A stretch of DNA of 64,000 nucleotides from Candidatus Cloacimonadota bacterium. GTDB lineage: Bacteria > Cloacimonadota > Cloacimonadia > Cloacimonadales > Cloacimonadaceae. Location of the stretch: positions 1 through 64,000 of the forward strand of contig JAQWBI010000004.1 of the NCBI GenBank assembly GCA_028706475.1, given 5' to 3'. Below, piece by piece: positions 46,433 through 57,579 of this stretch. How positions within the stretch are numbered: position 1 is the stretch's first letter; each line of letters opens with the position of its first letter. The position numbers were made by a program, and so were the translations under genes. The notes beneath the pieces were generated by a model. It did not search any database. It was not told where the DNA came from and saw only the letters and a program-made list of their open reading frames with translations.

Positions 46433-47767
46433 TTATTTACCCGGTAATTCGATGCCCAGACTGCTGATTTTCTTACTGAGGTTAGATTTATCCATCTGGA
46501 GGTAACTTGCTGCGCGAGTAATGTTTCCATCGTGAATCAAGAGTATCTTTTCCAGGTAATTTCGTTCAAACTGACGTACCGTCTCCCGATATGAGGTAGG
46601 AATGTCATCGAGTTCAGGATACTTTGTGGTAAAATCTACCACACTCAAGGTCTGCGATATCGAAAAAACAGCTGCGCGCTCCACAGAGTTTTTCAACTCC
46701 CTTACATTTCCGGGATAATCCTGCTCAAACAGCCATGCGGCCGCAGAGGGGGAGATGATCTTGAGGGGAATCTGATGCCTGGTGCAAAAGCAATGTAAAA
46801 AGTAATCCGCCAGAATGATGATGTCATCACGGTGATTACGCAAAGGCGGGATATCTATTTTAATGGTGCTGATGCGATAGTAGAGGTCGTCGCGAAATAA
46901 AGCATTTTCCACCATATCCAGCAGGTTTTTATTCGATGCGCTGATAATGCGGGTGGAAACTTTGCAGGGGCCTCCTCCAAGCTTTTGAATCTCCTGTTCG
47001 GAGATCACTCGCAGCAGTTTTGCCTGTACGGTCATGGGTAATTCACCAATCTCATCCAAAAAGATACTACTGCCCTGAGCATACTCAAAATAGCCTTTGT
47101 GAGAATTTGTAGCTCCGGTAAAAGCTCCCTTTTCGTAGCCAAACAGTTCCGATTCAAAGAGCTCACTGGGTATGGACGCACAATTGATGGTCACCAGATT
47201 CTTTTCATGCAGATCAGACAGACGATGGATGGCCATAGCCGCCAATTCTTTACCTACCCCGGTTTCACCGCAAATAAGGACCGGGGTATCGAAACGTGAT
47301 GCTTTGATGATGGAATCATACACTTGCTTCATGGGCTCGGAATTGCCTATCATTCCGATCGACGAAAGCTGTAATCCATGCAGGTTTCTGCGCATCAGGA
47401 TGTTGTCTTTGAGCCGTTCCAACCGGATAATGAGATGCTCTTTGGCAATAGGCTTTTCAATAAAATCTGTAGCTCCGTATTTGATGGCATTTACAGCATC
47501 AGGAATGTGCGCAGCGCCAGAGATCATTAGGATGGGCATTTCCGGATAACGCTCATGCAGCTCTTCCAACATGGCAAAACCATCTTGCAGAGCAGGATAG
47601 CACATGTCCTGCATCACCAAATCGAACTTATATGTGTTCAATGCAGCCTGTGCTTCTGCGATACAGGAAGCGGAGTGGACAATATAGCCTTCCCTGCGCA
47701 ACAAATCTTCGATAAGCTTGCAAAATATCGTATCGTCATCAGCGATCAAAATACGTATGCTATTCAT
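46433..47767 (-). CDS. NtrC-family sigma54-dependent response regulator
   Basis: A 444-residue transcription activator. Receiver 1-120 with acidic DDD at 10-12, phospho-acceptor Asp54 and Lys in FIEKPI; AAA+ domain ~135-365 with Walker A GETGVGKE (167-174), the sigma54-contact loop EKGAFTGAT (212-220) and Walker B SIFLDEI; C-terminal Fis-type helix-turn-helix ~405-440 (GNITRAASYLQMDKSNLSKKI). All parts needed for sigma54 activation are present. It overlaps the upstream kinase gene by eight bases, so the two form a cognate pair. The linker to the HTH is encoded by one copy of a 23-base palindromic repeat. Confidence 0.94.
   Translation of the reverse strand: MNSIRILIADDDTIFCKLIEDLLRREGYIVHSASCIAEAQAALNTYKFDLVMQDMCYPALQDGFAMLEELHERYPEMPILMISGAAHIPDAVNAIKYGATDFIEKPIAKEHLIIRLERLKDNILMRRNLHGLQLSSIGMIGNSEPMKQVYDSIIKASRFDTPVLICGETGVGKELAAMAIHRLSDLHEKNLVTINCASIPSELFESELFGYEKGAFTGATNSHKGYFEYAQGSSIFLDEIGELPMTVQAKLLRVISEQEIQKLGGGPCKVSTRIISASNKNLLDMVENALFRDDLYYRISTIKIDIPPLRNHRDDIIILADYFLHCFCTRHQIPLKIISPSAAAWLFEQDYPGNVRELKNSVERAAVFSISQTLSVVDFTTKYPELDDIPTSYRETVRQFERNYLEKILLIHDGNITRAASYLQMDKSNLSKKISSLGIELPGK
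46625..46647. repeat. 23-bp palindromic repeat, coding copy
   Basis: Identical to 46373-46395. It lies within codons near residues 374-381 of the NtrC-type regulator. Confidence 0.8.
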
Positions 47768-50204
47768 CTTGAGATCCTTTTAACCAGATGGAAACAGTAG
47801 TCCCCAGACCCTCCTCGCTTTGGATGTCGATCAGACCGCCCATGGAATCGACGATTTTGCGGGTTTCGGGAATGCCGATGCCGGTTCCGGATTGATTTGT
47901 AGTGAAAAACGGTTTCCAGATATCTTCCATGTATTTTTGGGGAATGCCTTTACCGGAGTCTTCAATCTCCACTAACACGCTGAGGTTGCCGCCGGGGCTT
48001 TGGTGCAGAGGAAATTCACGGATGCTGATGTGTAGGGTGCCGCCTTCTGGCATGGCTTCCGTGGCGTTGTTTATGATATTCACAATGGCTTCTTCAAAGC
48101 GGATAGGCTCGATTTTAGCATGGATGGATTTTAGATTGTAATTACGAATGATCTTGATGTTATCCCGGATCTTGGTGTTGCTAAGAGCATGCTCCACCGA
48201 AGGGATGAGATCCTGAACTTTCAGATCGTAATTGTGCATTTCGGTGAAGCGCTGGAATGCGTGTGTGAACACGCGTACCTTTTCGATTTCGCTTTTGATG
48301 ATATCCAGATACTCGGCATCTTCCTGGCTGCAGTCTTTTTCCAGGGGGTCCAGAGCCAGAATCACGTTTGTGATGTGCCGGCGAACATGATGCGAGAGCC
48401 TGCGTGCAGTCTCTGCCCATTGCAGAGTATCGGATTCAATATCCGCCAGTTTTCGGTACATAAAGATGAAGTATCTACCAGAATAGCTATGAGATCTTTG
48501 CAGGCTTACTTTTAGCGGTTTCCCATTTAGAATGATCTCCAGATGCTCCTGACTGGACATACTGCGGCGCATCTTTGCCAGGGCTTCATCCAAATCTGGA
48601 GAGATGGTGCGCAAATGCTTACAATAACTTCGTGATTCATTTTGGGGAGCCATGGAAATAGCAACTTTATTCGCAAAGAGGATACAGCCCTTTTTGTTTA
48701 CCAGAAACACGCCTTCATCCAGTAGATTGTAAGTGGAGATGGCGTCCTGCTTGCGTTTACTGATGTAGATTCCCATGTAGATAACGATTGCCAGAAGGAT
48801 CAACATCAACCATAGGGCATGGGCTTTCAACAAGCGATATACCAGGAGAAAAAATGAGATATGCTGCAGATAGTAGAAGTGGATAGATTTGTCCATTATC
48901 ACTGCAATTGAGGTTTGCATGCCCTCTGCACGGTTGATCACTCTTATACCCATCAGGTTCTGATCCTCCAAAGACAAGGGTGTGCGGGCTATTTCCAGCA
49001 GATCATGATTAAAAACCTGCAGTTCATCCTCGTTATTCAGGGCAATTATTTCTTTTTTACCGTTGTGATCGATATCTGTGATTGTACAGATACGCTTCAC
49101 GTTCCGGACGGTGCGGCTATGGCATTCGTTCAAATCCTCGTCAAAACATATAATGCCTCTCAATGCATCAGATAATATCAAGCGATACTCTGAGGAGCTG
49201 TCCATGCGTTGCAAAAAATCATTATGATCAAACATCATCAAGCTTTTGGGTAAAGATAGTTCCTTTTTGCGGATAAGGCGCCCATCGTCGTAGCTAAACC
49301 GAATTATACAATCGGCATCAGTATTGTTGCCCCGCGTGGATGCTACAGCAAAGATGTCCAGCTTGCCGTCCTGATCCACATCCGCAACGTTCACAGTTAG
49401 TGCGCCTAAACCATCAAAGATCCTGTGCAAATGGGTCAGCTCACCTTTAGTGTTCAGTATCACTAAGTTCCCGCTGAAGTCGTTCAGACCGTCAATACTC
49501 ATAGTATTGTTGTTGAAAGAGATGTTTGAGAGCAGGAACTCTTTGCTTCCATCCAGATCAAAGTCATCATAGAAGAATCCGGAAAAAACCGCCGGGCTGC
49601 GATAGAACCATTTTTGTGCCCCACTTTCCCAATCATAGGCGATCAGTCCCCTGGGATTTGAACTGTAACCATCATAAGCTGTACAAACGATCTCCAGCCT
49701 GTCATCTCCATCGATATCATCAATTATCTGCGGGACGAAGAAAGCGGTCCAGGTGTAGGAATCCAAGTCCATCAGCTCATCTTCACGGTAATATGGCACA
49801 AAGCCTTTGTTTTCACGTAATAGAGGTACTTGCCAAGTGTATTTAGCAGCTCGTAAGGATAAAGTACTACCATTGTTCATACTGTAAAACAGCCAAGTGC
49901 TTTTGTCTTTCGGATTCTCAAGAACTTTCAGGGCACCTGGGCGATAATTTGCAGTGTTGATTTGTGAAATGGTTTTACCTTCTTGATTGTTGATCTCGAT
50001 CCTGCCCAAGTTATTTTCATAGAATGCAGATATCTGAAGCTCTCTGCCATCACCTTTGAGATCGGCAACGATTGTGTTGATTGCAGGATTTTCATAGCGA
50101 TTTGTCCTTTGAAGCTTCAGTTCGTGAGTAAGAAAGCTTTGTGTGAACCAACAGGATCCCAATAGAAACGAAAGTAAAAAAACAATTATCGTTCTTAGTT
50201 TCAT
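47760..50204 (-). CDS. Histidine kinase with extracytoplasmic FG-GAP/VCBS-like propeller
   Basis: An 814-residue sensor. N-terminal export signal (MKLRTIIVFLLSFLLGSC, with a possible lipobox). Residues ~30-445 hold at least five calcium-type loops: DLKGDG (48), DIDGDD (163), DFDLDGS (214), DVDQDG (275) and DIDHNG (377), as in FG-GAP/VCBS beta-propellers. A membrane helix at ~462-481 leads to a PAS-like part (~487-590) and a kinase core: RRLSHHVRRHITNV with His605 as acceptor, NIINNATEAMPEGG, EDSGKGIP, GTGIGIPETRKIV. The residue after the acceptor, usually Glu/Asp, is His. ATG at 50204 has GAGGA upstream; a GTG two codons earlier is an alternative. Cognate to the NtrC-type regulator next to it. 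Confidence 0.88.
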   Translation of the reverse strand: MKLRTIIVFLLSFLLGSCWFTQSFLTHELKLQRTNRYENPAINTIVADLKGDGRELQISAFYENNLGRIEINNQEGKTISQINTANYRPGALKVLENPKDKSTWLFYSMNNGSTLSLRAAKYTWQVPLLRENKGFVPYYREDELMDLDSYTWTAFFVPQIIDDIDGDDRLEIVCTAYDGYSSNPRGLIAYDWESGAQKWFYRSPAVFSGFFYDDFDLDGSKEFLLSNISFNNNTMSIDGLNDFSGNLVILNTKGELTHLHRIFDGLGALTVNVADVDQDGKLDIFAVASTRGNNTDADCIIRFSYDDGRLIRKKELSLPKSLMMFDHNDFLQRMDSSSEYRLILSDALRGIICFDEDLNECHSRTVRNVKRICTITDIDHNGKKEIIALNNEDELQVFNHDLLEIARTPLSLEDQNLMGIRVINRAEGMQTSIAVIMDKSIHFYYLQHISFFLLVYRLLKAHALWLMLILLAIVIYMGIYISKRKQDAISTYNLLDEGVFLVNKKGCILFANKVAISMAPQNESRSYCKHLRTISPDLDEALAKMRRSMSSQEHLEIILNGKPLKVSLQRSHSYSGRYFIFMYRKLADIESDTLQWAETARRLSHHVRRHITNVILALDPLEKDCSQEDAEYLDIIKSEIEKVRVFTHAFQRFTEMHNYDLKVQDLIPSVEHALSNTKIRDNIKIIRNYNLKSIHAKIEPIRFEEAIVNIINNATEAMPEGGTLHISIREFPLHQSPGGNLSVLVEIEDSGKGIPQKYMEDIWKPFFTTNQSGTGIGIPETRKIVDSMGGLIDIQSEEGLGTTVSIWLKGSQDE

Positions 50205-50224
50205 ACGCACTACATCCTCATGTT

Positions 50225-52075
50225 TTACGGTTGTAACTCGGTGGCTGTTTGGATCATGAATTTCAGCTCTGAGTCTGAGGCATAATTCTGCACATAGTCC
50301 CATAAACTGTGCCAGGACAGTCCATCGACATCTACCTCATCTCTGAGTAATTTAGCAAAGAGCGCAGTAAACACATAATCCCGCATGTCTTGTTGCGCTT
50401 CAGCTGAGGCGGTTAGGCTGGGATCATACTCCTCGTAGCGAGGTTTTGCAGAATGAGGACTATGATAGTAAAGCATCAACTTGCCCGCACTATCGCTTTG
50501 GATATCGGCAGTATCAGGCAACTCTATCTCAAACAAAGCGGAAATGCTCTGCCCCGAAGTCAACATATTTGGAGTGAACGAAGCACTGGATGTAGCGCTA
50601 CTCTCATCCATACCACTCACTGCGATCTGACGATAGCGGGTAATGCTGGAACCGGAAAAATCAAACTTTAACTGCAGATATTGTGCTGTAAGAGGTACAT
50701 ATTTCAATAGGCCCGCTTGGAGTTGATGCTGGAATTCCTTCAGACTATCCACATAGATGTATCTTGCTGAACTTTCACCAGATACCTTGTACAGATTGTT
50801 ATCCTGATACAGATCCAAGCCCAAACCTAAAATCGTGCATAAAATCCCTTGTTTGTGTGCCAGAGCCAGAGTGCTAGCCATATCTTGCAGGATCTGTTCA
50901 GAGTAAAAGCCATCACTGAAGAGCCACATTTCGCCATACATGGGTACACTTAGTGTATTGGGGAAGATTCCATGCTCTAACTGTGCAGTTCCATTATGCT
51001 CCAGTTTTATGGCCTGCTGTAGTGCTAATTGTAACGCATCAATCACATTTCCGCTTCCAGAAGCCGATATCTTATCCAAAGCTAGGTAAGCAGATGCTTT
51101 ATCCTTGCCATCCACCGAGATTACAAGCGGATCTTGTCGCGCGCAGATAATTGTGAGCCGGGTGTCCTGATTCATCTGCTCAATAAAACAACGTAAGCTC
51201 TCTTTGGCCAGATACAGCTTGTCTTCAGTTCCCATTCTGCCGGAACAATCCAGCACCACATACAGGTTTCGGGGATTTGCTTTCTCTGTATTTAGTACGG
51301 GAGACTTCATTCCCACATACAAAAAGCTCCGGTCAGGATCATAGGGATGCCGCATAATCTGGGTTGCCACTGTGAAAGCATCTGCTGACGAACCAGAAAT
51401 ATCTGGTTGCATATAAGCCAGCATCTCATCAACTCTCGGAGCATTCGGATTGGGCAGCCTGCCGGCAGAAAGAAGACGGCGGAGATAACTGAAATATGCT
51501 GTGTTCACATTTACAGATACATCGGTCAAAGGTTTGGCAGACACATCATAAAAAGGCATGGAACTAACGGGCAGAAATGCTTCAGGTAATACCGGAGGCA
51601 TGTATGGTGCGGCATAAGCGCCACTAACCGGCACCGGCTGAGGCATCAGCATATCCAGGGACGAATGCTCAACCGGTATTATGGGGATAGTAAGCATGAA
51701 AGCGATTGAGGGGGAAGACTCCATCCGCACGTTACAGAAGCTGTTTCGGGCAGGATGCACTCTCACATCTTGCCGGATACTCTCGGCACCGGGAAGCTGA
51801 AACTCCAGGCTGTAGATACCGGGAACAAGGGACTTGATGCTATATTCCCCCAGCGGGCCAGTATGCAAGCTGCGCACCTGAGCCTGTTGAAGATACACAT
51901 CGATTCGCACATCTTCCAGCCCTGTTCCATCTACAGCTCTGAACACACCACCAATCTGCCCCATGGGCATCACTTCAGAGTTGTGGCTGAAAAAGCTTCC
52001 ATAAAGTCCTGAGACCATTATTAGAAAGGCCATGATACATACAGTAAACATCCCTTGTTGCTTTCTGGACATCAT
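50225..52075 (-). CDS. Exported VWA protein (YfbK-like) with carboxypeptidase-regulatory-like domain
   Basis: A 616-residue exported protein: hydrophobic N-terminal segment ~8-27; a carboxypeptidase-regulatory-like beta domain ~38-120 (GGVFRAVDGTGLEDVRIDV); a proline-rich link; the YfbK-type segment VNTAYFSYLRRLLSAGRLP (~190-210); a von Willebrand A domain from ~270; and a C-terminal DUF3520-like part ending in FMIQTATELQP. The metal site reads VLDCSGRMG (276-281): the second serine of DxSxS is Arg280, so metal binding may be impaired. It begins the three-gene unit with the propeller kinase and the NtrC-type regulator (20-base gap) and may deliver the signal; that is inference. Confidence 0.82.
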   Translation of the reverse strand: MMSRKQQGMFTVCIMAFLIMVSGLYGSFFSHNSEVMPMGQIGGVFRAVDGTGLEDVRIDVYLQQAQVRSLHTGPLGEYSIKSLVPGIYSLEFQLPGAESIRQDVRVHPARNSFCNVRMESSPSIAFMLTIPIIPVEHSSLDMLMPQPVPVSGAYAAPYMPPVLPEAFLPVSSMPFYDVSAKPLTDVSVNVNTAYFSYLRRLLSAGRLPNPNAPRVDEMLAYMQPDISGSSADAFTVATQIMRHPYDPDRSFLYVGMKSPVLNTEKANPRNLYVVLDCSGRMGTEDKLYLAKESLRCFIEQMNQDTRLTIICARQDPLVISVDGKDKASAYLALDKISASGSGNVIDALQLALQQAIKLEHNGTAQLEHGIFPNTLSVPMYGEMWLFSDGFYSEQILQDMASTLALAHKQGILCTILGLGLDLYQDNNLYKVSGESSARYIYVDSLKEFQHQLQAGLLKYVPLTAQYLQLKFDFSGSSITRYRQIAVSGMDESSATSSASFTPNMLTSGQSISALFEIELPDTADIQSDSAGKLMLYYHSPHSAKPRYEEYDPSLTASAEAQQDMRDYVFTALFAKLLRDEVDVDGLSWHSLWDYVQNYASDSELKFMIQTATELQP

Positions 52076-52732: not shown

Positions 52733-52745
52733 CGTATGGGGGATA

Positions 52746-53729
52746 CTATTGCTGTCCGAAGGCGTGGAGTACTTCGGTGCTTAGTTTACGTGCAAGGACT
52801 TTACTGCTGCGTTTCAATGCTCCACTTTCATTTCTATCGCCCTGATTTGCCGATGCAGATACCCTGAAGAGTTCTGTATCTTTATACATCAACATCAAAG
52901 TAGCTGCCAAATTTACGAAGTGCTGTTTGTTCATCTCTCGGGATTCCCGAAGCTCTATATCAACGATCAATCGATAATTTGATTCCGGAGCAAGGCTGAA
53001 ATCATGCTCTTTTAAAGTCTGTTTCAATTCATTCTCTATCTGCAGATCGTAATCGTTTCGAACTATTATTGATAGGGGCATCTGTTGTTTTGCTCTTTGG
53101 ATTTCCTGCAGGATGTAGTCTTCCCTGATGCTGGGATATCGGTTCTGAGTCACTGAAGTGGTAAAAGCGTTATAATAAAAGTAGTTCGTTTTGTTTTCCT
53201 GGAATAAATACTGAGCTTGAATATAATTTTTGATCGTATCCGGAAGTTGATCGCGAGCTTCCATTTTGAGCATTATTAGTTGTTCGTTGTTGTCGATTAT
53301 GCTACTGTAATGGGTCAGCACCTTATCCCTTTCTATGGCCGCCAATGCATGCCACAGGTGAGCAGATTCATCGTACCAGCTTTCCTTGATCTCAGCAAAT
53401 TGAAGACTGCCCACAGTGTAGGTTCTTACATCAGAAGAAACATGCTGGCTGTACTTGTTGGTAGTTTTTTTTGCATCCCGTTGTTCCATAGCTTCTTCAG
53501 TAACCCTGAGCCCAGAAGATATTCTGGTCTCAAGGAATCCTGAGAGACTTGACAGGGCGTTTGCTTTTGCTGCTTCGGCGGTCTTTCCTGTTCCGTATGC
53601 TGTGGCATATAAATCCTGAGGATAATACTTTGAGGGAGCAGCAATCCATTCTGGTGGTTTGTTGGTTATGGCAAGTGCGGGCAAAATCAAAACCGATATA
53701 AGTACTAAATTTAGCATACATTTTTTCAT
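52746..53729 (-). CDS. LPP20-like exported protein
   Basis: A 327-residue protein with signal peptide MKKCMLNLVLISVLILPALA. The next part, PPEWIAAPSKYYPQDLYATA followed by GTGKTAEAAKANALSSLSGF, is the LPP20-type pattern: Trp near the start, then a G-x-G turn and an alanine-rich helix. The rest (to 327) is a mix of helices and a late segment SNYRLIVDIELRESREM typical of small periplasmic alpha/beta folds. It is the last gene of a four-gene cluster of exported proteins and its function is unknown. ATG at 53729 has GAGG at a long spacing; a TTG five codons earlier is open. Confidence 0.75.
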   Translation of the reverse strand: MKKCMLNLVLISVLILPALAITNKPPEWIAAPSKYYPQDLYATAYGTGKTAEAAKANALSSLSGFLETRISSGLRVTEEAMEQRDAKKTTNKYSQHVSSDVRTYTVGSLQFAEIKESWYDESAHLWHALAAIERDKVLTHYSSIIDNNEQLIMLKMEARDQLPDTIKNYIQAQYLFQENKTNYFYYNAFTTSVTQNRYPSIREDYILQEIQRAKQQMPLSIIVRNDYDLQIENELKQTLKEHDFSLAPESNYRLIVDIELRESREMNKQHFVNLAATLMLMYKDTELFRVSASANQGDRNESGALKRSSKVLARKLSTEVLHAFGQQ

Positions 53730-53750
53730 GATGTCGTGCCTCAATCATTG

Positions 53751-53775
53751 CGGGGAGAGGATTGCCCCCTCCCCG
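53751..53775. promoter_or_regulatory. Strong intercistronic hairpin
   Basis: Arms CGGGGAG and CTCCCCG with further inner G-C pairs lie between the two exported-protein genes, just ahead of the LPP20-like ribosome site. No T run follows. It could modulate mRNA stability or translation. Confidence 0.45.
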
Positions 53776-53787
53776 TATGTTTTTAGA

Positions 53788-54498
53788 TCATGGTAGTTTT
53801 ATTTCTGCTGGCACTTCGATATTGTTTACCGAGGCTATCGTTAGCAAATTTTTCAGGGTATTGCCCTGTTGAGAGAGCATTGTAGGGATTTCTGCCGCCA
53901 TAGAAGCTGCCGCAGCAAGATTTTTGGCTTCTTTTGTTTTTGCTATTCCCTTCAGGGATTTGGAATTATCGGTATATTGTTTCACCGCTACCACCAGCGC
54001 AGTTTCCCTGATCACTGCTGAACCCATGCGCATTAATCCGGCTTTCATCCAGGCTTTTTGTAGCTCACTAAGTTCAGTCTTGTTGTCTGCCATTTCCTGT
54101 AATCTGGCTTCGGCTTCAGCAGATTTTTCCGTCATTACTTGCCCTGCATTGCCCGCTGCTGCTGCATCTGTTGCTGCCTGTGCAGCCACTACGTCTTTTC
54201 TGAGATCCAGAGCTTGCAACATGATTTCATTAGCATATGCTATATCTTCTTTGGCGGATTGAAACTCTACCATGATAGGCGTAAAATCCTTGCCCATTGA
54301 TGCCACAGACGCATACAAACTCGGAAGAATAGTAAGCACATCTCCAGAAATACTATTTGCATAAGCTATCTGTGCTTCCTCTGTTTCAAACTGGGAATCA
54401 TCCAGAATCAACTGGAATTCAGCCGTGTCTTTTTTCTTTTTGGCAAATGCCCCGAAGACAATTATTACCATAACCAGACTTACAATGATTTTTTTCAT
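53788..54498 (-). CDS. Exported alanine-rich helical protein, unknown function
   Basis: A 236-residue protein with signal peptide MKKIIVSLVMVIIVFGAFA. The mature part starts with lysines (KKKKDTAEFQ) and is almost all helical and alanine rich (for example AAQAATDAAAAGNAGQVMTE; ~100-160), with short hydrophobic heptads that suggest helical bundles or coiled coils. I do not recognise a family. ATG at 54498 follows AAGGAG; in-frame sequence up to 54666 overlaps the upstream gene in another frame and is not believable. Third gene of the cluster; 19 bases after the CsgG/LpoB-like gene. Confidence 0.75.
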   Translation of the reverse strand: MKKIIVSLVMVIIVFGAFAKKKKDTAEFQLILDDSQFETEEAQIAYANSISGDVLTILPSLYASVASMGKDFTPIMVEFQSAKEDIAYANEIMLQALDLRKDVVAAQAATDAAAAGNAGQVMTEKSAEAEARLQEMADNKTELSELQKAWMKAGLMRMGSAVIRETALVVAVKQYTDNSKSLKGIAKTKEAKNLAAAASMAAEIPTMLSQQGNTLKNLLTIASVNNIEVPAEIKLP

Positions 54499-54517
54499 TG
54501 TTCTCTCCTTTTTTATA

Positions 54518-55909
54518 CTACATCCCCATTTTGACTCGTAGCTGATCCACAAGATCTTGGGATGCTTTTGTAGATGCTTCGATGAGAGCGTTTGTCTTTG
54601 CCACGGTTGGGTTTTCGCCCAATCCGCTAAACTGTACCGGACCCACACTGCAGATCTTGGTGGCAAAACGCTTTCTGAGATCCATGATGTAGCTGTTTAC
54701 TTTAGCGTAGATTTTGTATTGACCCGTTACTGGATCAATCTCTTCCTGTCCCAGATCCAAGAGACCTATTGCGAGAAAATCCAAGCCGGCATCACGAGCC
54801 AGATCGGTAGCTTCTTTCTGAGTTGAACTGGCCACTTCTCCGATGGAAGCAAAGTCAAATGCTAGCTGCTCCGGAGTGATATCCGCTTCATAAGCCGGCA
54901 CCACATCAATTCCCGCTTTATTGAAGATCTCCGTTACCTTGGAATCTATCTCCTGTGGATTGAAGACCCGATAGATAATACCCTGGCTGCTTTTTACCAC
55001 CGATCCTGAGGATTGGAATGTCGAGAGAGTAGCACTATCCGTATTGCCCTTGGAGCTGTTTCTGTAAACAGTAGTGGTCACAATATTTCCGCTGGTGTTG
55101 ATATTGGTGTCTGTTCTATTTTCAAATTGGCTGTTTACATTTGTATCCTGTACCGTGTCGGATGAACTATGCATTTTGTCCAAGGATGTAGAACTGCTCG
55201 AGGTTACAGACAAGGCTGCATTATCGTCTTGATAATGTACGCTTCCAGACACAGCAGCATCGTCATGCGTTTTCAAGGTTGCTGCCGCAGTGTCTGTTTG
55301 CTGGATAACGCGAGTATCGGAAGAGCCATGCCCTTGCGTAGTAGTAACGATGTCGGTGTTGCCGCTTATCTTGCTGTGCTGAACGCGGTCATTATCGCTG
55401 GAGGCATTATAGCTATGTGAAGAGGAGCTGGCGGCAGTTCTGTTCACAGTATCGTCAAAAGCTTCCACCGCACTTACCTCCCGTGCCACATAGATAAAGC
55501 TAAGGTACGTATCCTGCTGCAGTTGTCTGCTGGATTGAGATCGTTGATTCGCCAAAAGATCAATCTGAGCATCGTTGATGGATACTTCCAAGTTCATCTG
55601 CCACTTGCCGTTCACCAATTCCCCTTCATTCAATTGCGTTACTTCCAGAATATATATATTGAGATTATCCATTATCTCGGGGAGGAGTGAATTGATCAGT
55701 TGCAGGCGTTGGGATTCAAGAGTCGCAGCCCATTTTTTGATGGCTTGCTCTTTGCCATTTTCAAAAACCCTATTGATTTCTTCTATGGAGGGTTTCTTTT
55801 TCCGGATATCCGTTTCTCCCTTCACCTTTACTTTGGTAATGGCATACATACTGTTTATCACAAATGATAGAAGCACACAGATGAAGATGTTCTTCAGAAG
55901 TTTTGACAT
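54518..55909 (-). CDS. Exported protein with CsgG/LpoB/FlgT-like C-terminal fold and Ser/Thr-rich centre
   Basis: A 463-residue protein with signal peptide ~1-23. An N-terminal alpha/beta part (~35-150) has the EQAIKKWAATLESQRLQLI helix and NEGELVNGKWQMNLEVSI strands. Residues ~155-310 are low complexity, rich in Ser, Thr, Asp, Asn and His (AASSSSHSYNASSDNDR). The C-terminal part (~315-463) reads as a CsgG/LpoB/FlgT-type fold: DSKVTEIFNKAGIDVVP, ARDAGLDFLAIGLLDLG, GQYKIYAKVNSYIMDL, and NPTVAKTNALIEASTKA. The fold call is mine from pattern, not search. GGAG precedes the ATG, with ten-base spacing; its start overlaps the upstream gene by 16 bases. Confidence 0.72.
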   Translation of the reverse strand: MSKLLKNIFICVLLSFVINSMYAITKVKVKGETDIRKKKPSIEEINRVFENGKEQAIKKWAATLESQRLQLINSLLPEIMDNLNIYILEVTQLNEGELVNGKWQMNLEVSINDAQIDLLANQRSQSSRQLQQDTYLSFIYVAREVSAVEAFDDTVNRTAASSSSHSYNASSDNDRVQHSKISGNTDIVTTTQGHGSSDTRVIQQTDTAAATLKTHDDAAVSGSVHYQDDNAALSVTSSSSTSLDKMHSSSDTVQDTNVNSQFENRTDTNINTSGNIVTTTVYRNSSKGNTDSATLSTFQSSGSVVKSSQGIIYRVFNPQEIDSKVTEIFNKAGIDVVPAYEADITPEQLAFDFASIGEVASSTQKEATDLARDAGLDFLAIGLLDLGQEEIDPVTGQYKIYAKVNSYIMDLRKRFATKICSVGPVQFSGLGENPTVAKTNALIEASTKASQDLVDQLRVKMGM

Positions 55910-57000
55910 CTTTTTATCACTCCTTTTTTTCCTTTTTTGTCTCTCATGAGTTCCTTATCTGCCTTAAAAGTATCAATCATTGTTTTTGTAACAGCGGTTA
56001 ACAAAACTTCATTGAAATTGGCAAAATCGTCCACGACCTGATTCTTTACCGTCAGCTTTGCCGCTCCATGCTTCACCTCATTGTTCCAATACACATCACC
56101 TAATTCAGCATCATAGATCTTCACGTTGGTATAAGCCCCATATACATACACTCTTTCAGTGTTTTTTTCCGAATGCAAAGCTTTATAGAACTTATCCACA
56201 TGGATGGCCAGATCGTAGCTGGCAGCAGGGATACTGAAATTCTGCATTTCAGCGTCAGAGAAGGAGAGTGCCATCTTTTGCCCGGCATAATCCCTGGAAT
56301 AGGGTAACATGGACACATTGAGATCAAACGCTAAAGCTTCTGTTGCTTGATTGGCGATCAGGGCAGCATAACTAGCTTCATTCTGCCCGCTGTCTGTGAT
56401 CTGATGCAAAACATCGTCGCTGAATGTTATATCACTCACTTTCATCGATAAAGTGCCGCTCTGTGCGAGATATACTTCAGCTACACGCCGGCTAAGACCG
56501 TTTATCACCTGTTTCTGGATTATCTCGTGAATCGTGTTTATGATGCGGGTCTGCAAAATATCGTCTTCAGAACCTTCAATGATATCCAGATACGCCACTT
56601 TCACAGGATAAGATTGAATTACTCGCATCTCATCATAATCCAGAATATTCAATGAGAAACCCAGATTGTAGATCAGCTTTACATACTCTCCGATCTGCTC
56701 AAAATCTACGTTCTCTCGCAATAGAGTGATAGTCATTGCCAGTCTGGTATCAATATTCGTGAAGACTAATTCGAAGTTACCAAAGACCTTGTTTTGTTCA
56801 AACATTCTAAAGAATTCTTGTTCCAATACGGAAAGACCGGAGGAATCCTTTTGTGCAAACAACTGATGAGTATATTTGTATCTTTGAGGGATATTGGCAT
56901 AATCTCCACTAAAGCTAAATCCAGCGTATCGCACTTGATTCTGTGCAAACGCAGCCTGGCTCAACACAATAACCAGTAAAATCAGACAGAATTTCTTCAT
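55894..57000 (-). CDS. Exported protein, first gene of the LPP20/CsgG-like cluster
   Basis: A 368-residue protein with signal peptide MKKFCLILLVIVLSQAAFA. The fold looks like repeated alpha/beta units; LVFTNIDTRLAMTITLLREN and KVAYLDIIEGSEDDIL are notable, and the late part (YVYGAYTNVKIYDAELGDVYW) resembles the strand pair of LPP20/CsgG-like proteins. The C terminus is very basic (RDKKGKKGVIKR). No family recognised. ATG at 57000 follows AAGGA; an in-frame start at 57024 is possible but poor. A promoter candidate lies 120-147 bases upstream. Confidence 0.75.
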   Translation of the reverse strand: MKKFCLILLVIVLSQAAFAQNQVRYAGFSFSGDYANIPQRYKYTHQLFAQKDSSGLSVLEQEFFRMFEQNKVFGNFELVFTNIDTRLAMTITLLRENVDFEQIGEYVKLIYNLGFSLNILDYDEMRVIQSYPVKVAYLDIIEGSEDDILQTRIINTIHEIIQKQVINGLSRRVAEVYLAQSGTLSMKVSDITFSDDVLHQITDSGQNEASYAALIANQATEALAFDLNVSMLPYSRDYAGQKMALSFSDAEMQNFSIPAASYDLAIHVDKFYKALHSEKNTERVYVYGAYTNVKIYDAELGDVYWNNEVKHGAAKLTVKNQVVDDFANFNEVLLTAVTKTMIDTFKADKELMRDKKGKKGVIKRCQNF

Positions 57001-57120
57001 TGAACATCCTTGTGATCTGTGCATTTTTGTGTCTTTGGCAATGCGTCATAACAAATCGTACATGTGAATCCACGACCCTTTAACGCCACAATATCCAGAG
57101 CCAGACACACAATAAATCTA

Positions 57121-57147
57121 AAGATAGTCTTTGAATAAATATGTCAA
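57121..57147 (-). promoter_or_regulatory. Candidate promoter of the four-gene exported-protein cluster
   Basis: Minus strand TTGACA (57142-57147), 15-base spacer, TATCTT (57121-57126). The leader would be about 110 bases. Confidence 0.4.
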
Positions 57148-57579
57148 GAACTATTATCTACTCTCACATCCCCCGGTTGTAAAACAGGATACAATAAGCT
57201 GGTTTTCTTCGTGCCATTTTCCCTTATAGGGATTCATATTGAATCTGGAAACTGAGCAGAAGCATCGAGTGACGAGCTCTGACAGGCGATAATAGACAAA
57301 GTCGTATATCTTCTTCCAAGTTTTGTTTCTATACTTCATAATGGCAGGGAATGCCAGCAAGTACTTATGTGCGAACCTCTTCAATGAGTACAGGAAACAC
57401 ATTGTAAGCAAAAGAATCGGATTCATGGTTTGTAAACTTATATATGATGTTAATTGTATACTTTCCCAGCCTTAGACTTGTTTCAAATGACGGTGGACTT
57501 CTTCGATTTTCCAACGCATTTTACTGCAAGACAATATATGCAAATATGTCGATACAATCTGTATATCTTGTTGTCGTGC
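57148..57579. other. Intergenic region, no supported gene
   Basis: AT-rich stretch. A 90-codon open frame on the minus strand (57426-57154) lacks a ribosome site and resembles nothing I know; I do not call it. No terminator for pyrF is visible. Confidence 0.4.

Follow-up and report, generated by a model that had tools for sequence, protein, structure and literature searches.

A four-gene cluster on the minus strand of a Candidatus Cloacimonadota contig is a genuine, co-inherited operon of exported proteins, most of which recurs in Burkholderiales, and we tentatively read it as encoding a ring or scaffold of the cell envelope. Within the window, by which we mean the whole 64,000-nucleotide stretch analysed, the genes lie at positions 52746-57000 in the order g4, g3, g2, g1:

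55894-57000, minus strand: g4, gene 1; 368 aa, exported; start set by signal sequence and homologues
54518-55909, minus strand: g3, gene 2; 463 aa; start set by signal sequence and homologues
54977-55474, minus strand: g3 insert rich in Ser, Thr, Asp and Asn (residues 146-311, approximately); predicted to be disordered
53788-54498, minus strand: g2, gene 3; 236 aa, Ala-rich; helical by inspection
52746-53729, minus strand: g1, gene 4; 327 aa, LPP20 family, with the C-terminal domain of the phylum's LPP20 proteins

Coding status and the LPP20 member

The starts of all four genes were set from signal sequences and homologues. The genes are tightly packed, with spacings of -16 bp (g4/g3), +19 bp (g3/g2) and +58 bp (g2/g1). 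All four proteins carry signal peptides as judged by eye, and a lipobox was found in none of them; lipobox-like motifs occur in some g1 and g2 homologues (for g2, at loci L034 and L063) and in a CsgG-like protein of Cupriavidus. None of the four open reading frames contains an internal stop, and within one genus pairwise dN (about 0.08-0.32) lies far below dS (1.0-2.1) for every gene, indicating that all four, of which g1 changes fastest, are under purifying selection. Both observations rule out a pseudogene or a mis-called reading frame. No Pfam or NCBIfam family was found above cut-off for g2, g3 or g4, no enzyme family in these collections passed its cut-off for any of the four proteins, and sequence searches of PDB chains with g1-g4 profiles gave no meaningful match; weak Pfam matches (methyltransferase, NPH3 and similar) fell below their cut-offs and were rejected. 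The earlier note, made from the letters alone, had described four packed genes with signal sequences and no enzymes, comprising one LPP20-like member, one with a CsgG/LpoB-like C-terminal pattern and an insert of about 150 residues, and one Ala-rich helical member; these descriptions hold for the operon as a whole and for g1, g3 and g2, respectively, the helical character of g2 being read from its sequence.

Judged by its sequence, g1 is a true LPP20 protein. It matches the LPP20 family (PF02169) at 5.9e-8, with 33.5 bits against a gathering cut-off of 25.9, and its homologues match at up to 8.5e-20. Compared with an LPP20 set that includes members of LpoB-COG3014-LPP20 gene triads, it aligned by hhalign at 100% over 329 columns, and inspection revealed a long segment between the helix and the second strand. 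One genome (G073; loci L095 and L063) carries a canonical LPP20 gene in addition to the four-gene cluster, so the cluster's g1 represents a separate LPP20 lineage. Elsewhere in the window's own genome (L097:4538-7104, contig C26), genes for a CsgG-domain lipoprotein (416 aa) and, after it, a lipoprotein with an LPP20 domain (439 aa) form a second envelope pair.

Modelled folds of g4 and g3

The structure models of g4 and g3 were built from three-sequence alignments and have pLDDT values of 54 and 49. In its AF2 model, g4 consists of two strand-helix-three-strand-helix units, and it appears to comprise two units of CsgG/LptE/FlgT type, a fold relationship that the earlier note did not contain. 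Foldseek returned 16 matches at E ≤0.001, including an LPHT ring entry from Vibrio (3.8e-5), HpaA and LptE as the best ones and also GNA1162, with FlgT, CsgG and PelC just behind. These matches belong to one broad fold group, which makes their agreement meaningful even for a poor model, although at a pLDDT of 54 the fold match stays tentative. The two halves were also considered as repeats recognizable by profile; profiles gave no support, and the repeat exists only in the modelled secondary structure. A single cysteine near the C-terminus of g4, C365 (55906-55908), is invariant in 8/8 aligned homologues from two phyla.

In the g3 model, an N-terminal domain (about residues 24-130; beta-alpha-alpha-beta-beta-alpha) is followed by a strand at 135-143, a disordered loop and a C-terminal domain at 318-463. 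The N-terminal domain is possibly SHS2-like: its SHS2-type Foldseek matches (FlgT, Tip-alpha, FtsA and PilM) are individually not significant, and no g3 match reaches E 0.001. Its reading as an LPP20 domain detectable by profile was dropped because profile comparison gave no support, and neither this domain nor g4 showed profile similarity to the proposed families. The C-terminal domain resembles LpoB and CsgG proteins in profile score and in its modelled topology, which is that of the CsgG/TolB-N group. LpoB is the closest of the families compared, at a score of 27-28 (27.9) that exceeds 26/26 control domains and comes close to the positive control; this control, the FlgT-like M domain of Pfam-confirmed CsgG-like proteins, scored 30.2 against LpoB. 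Pfam gave no match between g3 and LpoB (PF13036), for which the hhalign probability was 10-18%, and neither g3 nor g4 matched the CsgG family (PF03783), whole or by domain. The insert (168 residues, 52% Ser/Thr/Asp/Asn) is hydrophilic, sits after the presumed first strand of the C-terminal domain, is modelled as disordered and ranges from 36 to 168 residues across homologues; we predict that it is a variable disordered loop.

Patchy distribution and Burkholderiales counterparts

Conservation in relatives, both as co-occurrence and as gene order, was the check that the earlier note had proposed for itself, and it came out in favour of the cluster. Separate searches for g3 and g4 recovered an identical set of 7/125 Cloacimonadota genomes, which represent four genera within a single family. 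All seven carriers have the complete cluster in the same order, and in each of six Cloacimonadota loci measured, g4 and g3 share exactly 16 bp.

The cluster is absent from close relatives: 11 congeners lack g3 and g4. In the five examined, tRNA-Gln and a terminator are followed directly by pyrF, which also flanks the cluster in the window. The missing block is as follows:

52733-57576, no strand: block missing from five congeners, by DNA alignment; ends approximate

The empty site in five congeners indicates a patchy distribution of the block, which is probably mobile. The other carriers have different neighbourhoods, after mutL-miaA-PPIase genes in one setting and near a response regulator in another, and the operon has a GC content of 43.1% against 47.3% for the window. 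No integrase or flanking direct repeat, including a tRNA-derived attachment repeat, was found around the block. The operon was likely gained horizontally, although repeated loss may be an alternative.

Several features of the surroundings were also recorded. In the window, the cluster adjoins genes for a response regulator, an FG-GAP-repeat histidine kinase and a von Willebrand-A protein (46433-52075), and the latter two also sit beside the tRNA cluster in an operon-free congener (L112). In two genomes, the cluster has genes that look by eye like type I CRISPR-Cas immediately downstream of it (L033 13013-18001 and L034 353-7128). Loci L032 and L061 (genomes G032 and G067, of one genus and counted as different species) have near-identical-looking clusters and flanks, which may reflect recent exchange, close relatedness or a binning artefact.

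Outside Cloacimonadota, we searched plasmid, phage and viral records, with chromosomes covered by one narrow pattern scan. By tblastn of the plasmid records, g4 and g3 are adjacent on the chromid of Cupriavidus metallidurans CH34 and on a plasmid of Caballeronia, with profile E values of 2.7e-43 and 1.8e-30 for g4 and 8.5e-41 and 2.4e-35 for g3; g2 homologues were recovered by hmmsearch at 6.3e-14 and 1.5e-5. The order g4-g3-g2 is thus kept in a second phylum, in both genera, with a constant g4/g3 overlap of 10 bp. The place of g1 is taken in Cupriavidus by a downstream CsgG-family lipoprotein (PF03783, 3.6e-10), whose Caballeronia homologue lies upstream of the cluster. By inspection, these proteins have an SHS2-CsgG-extension layout like that of FlgT, and their N-terminal domain scores 22.0 against the LPP20 profile, above all controls, so a partner of SHS2/LPP20 type is retained. 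The constant set is therefore g4, g3 and g2 plus such a partner. A contig scan with a Cloacimonadota-only alignment yielded only two loci; the narrowness of its peptide patterns kept Burkholderiales out of reach, so the distribution beyond Cloacimonadota is under-sampled. The phage and viral collections contained no relatives of the cluster proteins.

A candidate envelope ring and competing readings

From folds and gene order, and with low-confidence models, we consider it a little short of an even chance that this accessory operon encodes a multiprotein scaffold in the periplasm, probably an oligomeric ring or disk, close to the outer membrane and made from building blocks of flagellar H-ring type. 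In such an assembly g4 and g3, whose overlapping genes are probably translationally coupled, would be the core subunits, oligomerizing via domains of CsgG/LptE type. A ring former of SHS2/LPP20 type would be contributed at the outer membrane by g1 or, in Burkholderiales, by the FlgT-like protein; g2 would act as a helical adaptor; and the disordered Ser/Thr/Asp/Asn loop of g3 would span the peptidoglycan or fill the ring. The assembly would work in the manner of a flagellar H-ring or basal disk, but in cells where no flagellum is detectable, and it might support an appendage, an enzyme of the envelope or its mechanical strength. FlgP, Lpp20 and FlgT share a common SHS2-like fold, FlgP and FlgT make outer-membrane rings, and a beta-hairpin insertion accompanies ring formation (PMC12222027).

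Like the H-ring or basal disk (FlgT, FlgO, FlgP), the operon encodes an exported set with an LPP20/SHS2-type member and CsgG/TolB-type domains; the best structural match of g4 is the Vibrio ring entry, and the Caballeronia and Cupriavidus versions include an SHS2-plus-CsgG protein of FlgT-like layout. Unlike it, the operon includes the additional helical g2, the Pfam FlgT and FlgO models are not matched by g3 or g4, and searches for the flagellar rod (PF00460) and FliG (PF01706), which were positive in flagellated control species, gave no match in 7/7 carrier genomes. The same kinds of parts as in flagellar rings, found where rod and FliG are absent, favour a scaffold or ring that is non-flagellar. 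Because these folds also occur in proteins that form no ring, such as LptE, they suggest a ring rather than prove one, and the window proteins, which lack lipoboxes, are only putatively attached to the outer membrane. A further parallel, by description and not by sequence, is the H. pylori HP1454-HP1456 (Lpp20) operon, which encodes co-transcribed secreted proteins with Lpp20-type domains, Lpp20 being recovered together with the ring protein FapH (PMC11756786); organization and the other domains differ. Of the envelope complex suggested in the earlier note, the conserved, exported and co-occurring cluster of LPP20/CsgG/LpoB/FlgT-like proteins is supported, and the complex itself is plausible.

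The main rival, which we think unlikely, is a peptidoglycan synthase regulator that has diverged, with g3 acting as an LpoB-like protein and g1 in the LPP20 place of the Cloacimonadota LpoB-COG3014-LPP20 triads, which are common in the order. LpoB spans the periplasm by a long disordered segment, as the g3 loop might; the g3 C-terminal domain is nearest to LpoB among the families compared, g1 is a full-length homologue of the third triad gene, and the order (CsgG-type, helical, LPP20) is loosely similar. In other families of the order, an LPP20 gene follows LpoB and COG3014, and it is missing at the corresponding site of the window's own genome (L096:4746-6747, contig C9). Only the LPP20 member of a triad is found at the cluster; LpoB and COG3014 of this genome lie on another contig. 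Yet a bona fide LpoB is kept elsewhere in this genome and in most congeners, and genome G073 carries a canonical LPP20 as well as the cluster, so the two systems can coexist and the cluster is not a simple replacement. The cluster also lacks COG3014, Pfam finds neither LpoB nor COG3014 in g4, g3 or g2, the triad has no recognizable counterpart of g4 or g2, and the operon contains no PBP gene.

A CsgG-like outer-membrane pore exporting a surface polymer or fibre is improbable, and less likely than an LpoB-like regulator given the absent substrate gene and an insert that is not pore-like. A related fold is seen in the g4 model and probably in that of g3, a CsgG-family protein adjoins the Cupriavidus cluster, and a 650-aa lipoprotein annotated as a cell wall anchor, a possible client, is encoded downstream of the Caballeronia cluster (L118:15525-17477). 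Against this, no counterpart of the 650-aa gene lies beside the Cupriavidus cluster, the window proteins do not match PF03783, and the g3 insert, hydrophilic and variable in length, is unlike a conserved pore hairpin. Inspection of the open reading frames beside the seven Cloacimonadota clusters revealed no curli-like amyloid subunit, accessory or substrate gene. The export of a surface polymer, which the earlier note had offered as an option, is accordingly not supported.

Quite improbable is a set of LptE/PqiC-like factors for assembling a lipid or outer-membrane protein: the structural matches of g4 and g3 include LptE, GNA1162 and XCC0632, and the Cupriavidus g3 is weakly similar to Pfam LptE (0.063), but the operon has no LptD-, MlaD- or PqiB-like partner, and presence in 7/125 genomes is ill-suited to a core assembly role. 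Anti-phage defence or other mobile-island cargo with no structural envelope role would fit the patchiness, the tRNA site and the empty alleles in congeners, but is highly improbable given no PADLOC match, no convincing PHROGs match, no enzyme or sensor domain and no relatives in phage or viral collections.

Returning to the ring or scaffold, a bolder form of this reading, which we regard as doubtful, is that a mobile operon shared by two distant phyla encodes a non-flagellar outer-membrane ring machine, resembling the H-ring or basal disk, built from SHS2/LPP20- and CsgG/LptE-type subunits and of the kind from which flagellar outer rings could be recruited. In two phyla, three families that have no Pfam or NCBIfam model occur together with a partner resembling LPP20 or FlgT, and C. 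metallidurans CH34 is culturable, which makes the question testable at the bench. If the ring is real, these bacteria would have an outer-membrane ring without a flagellum, opening the questions of what such a ring does and where the H-ring came from.
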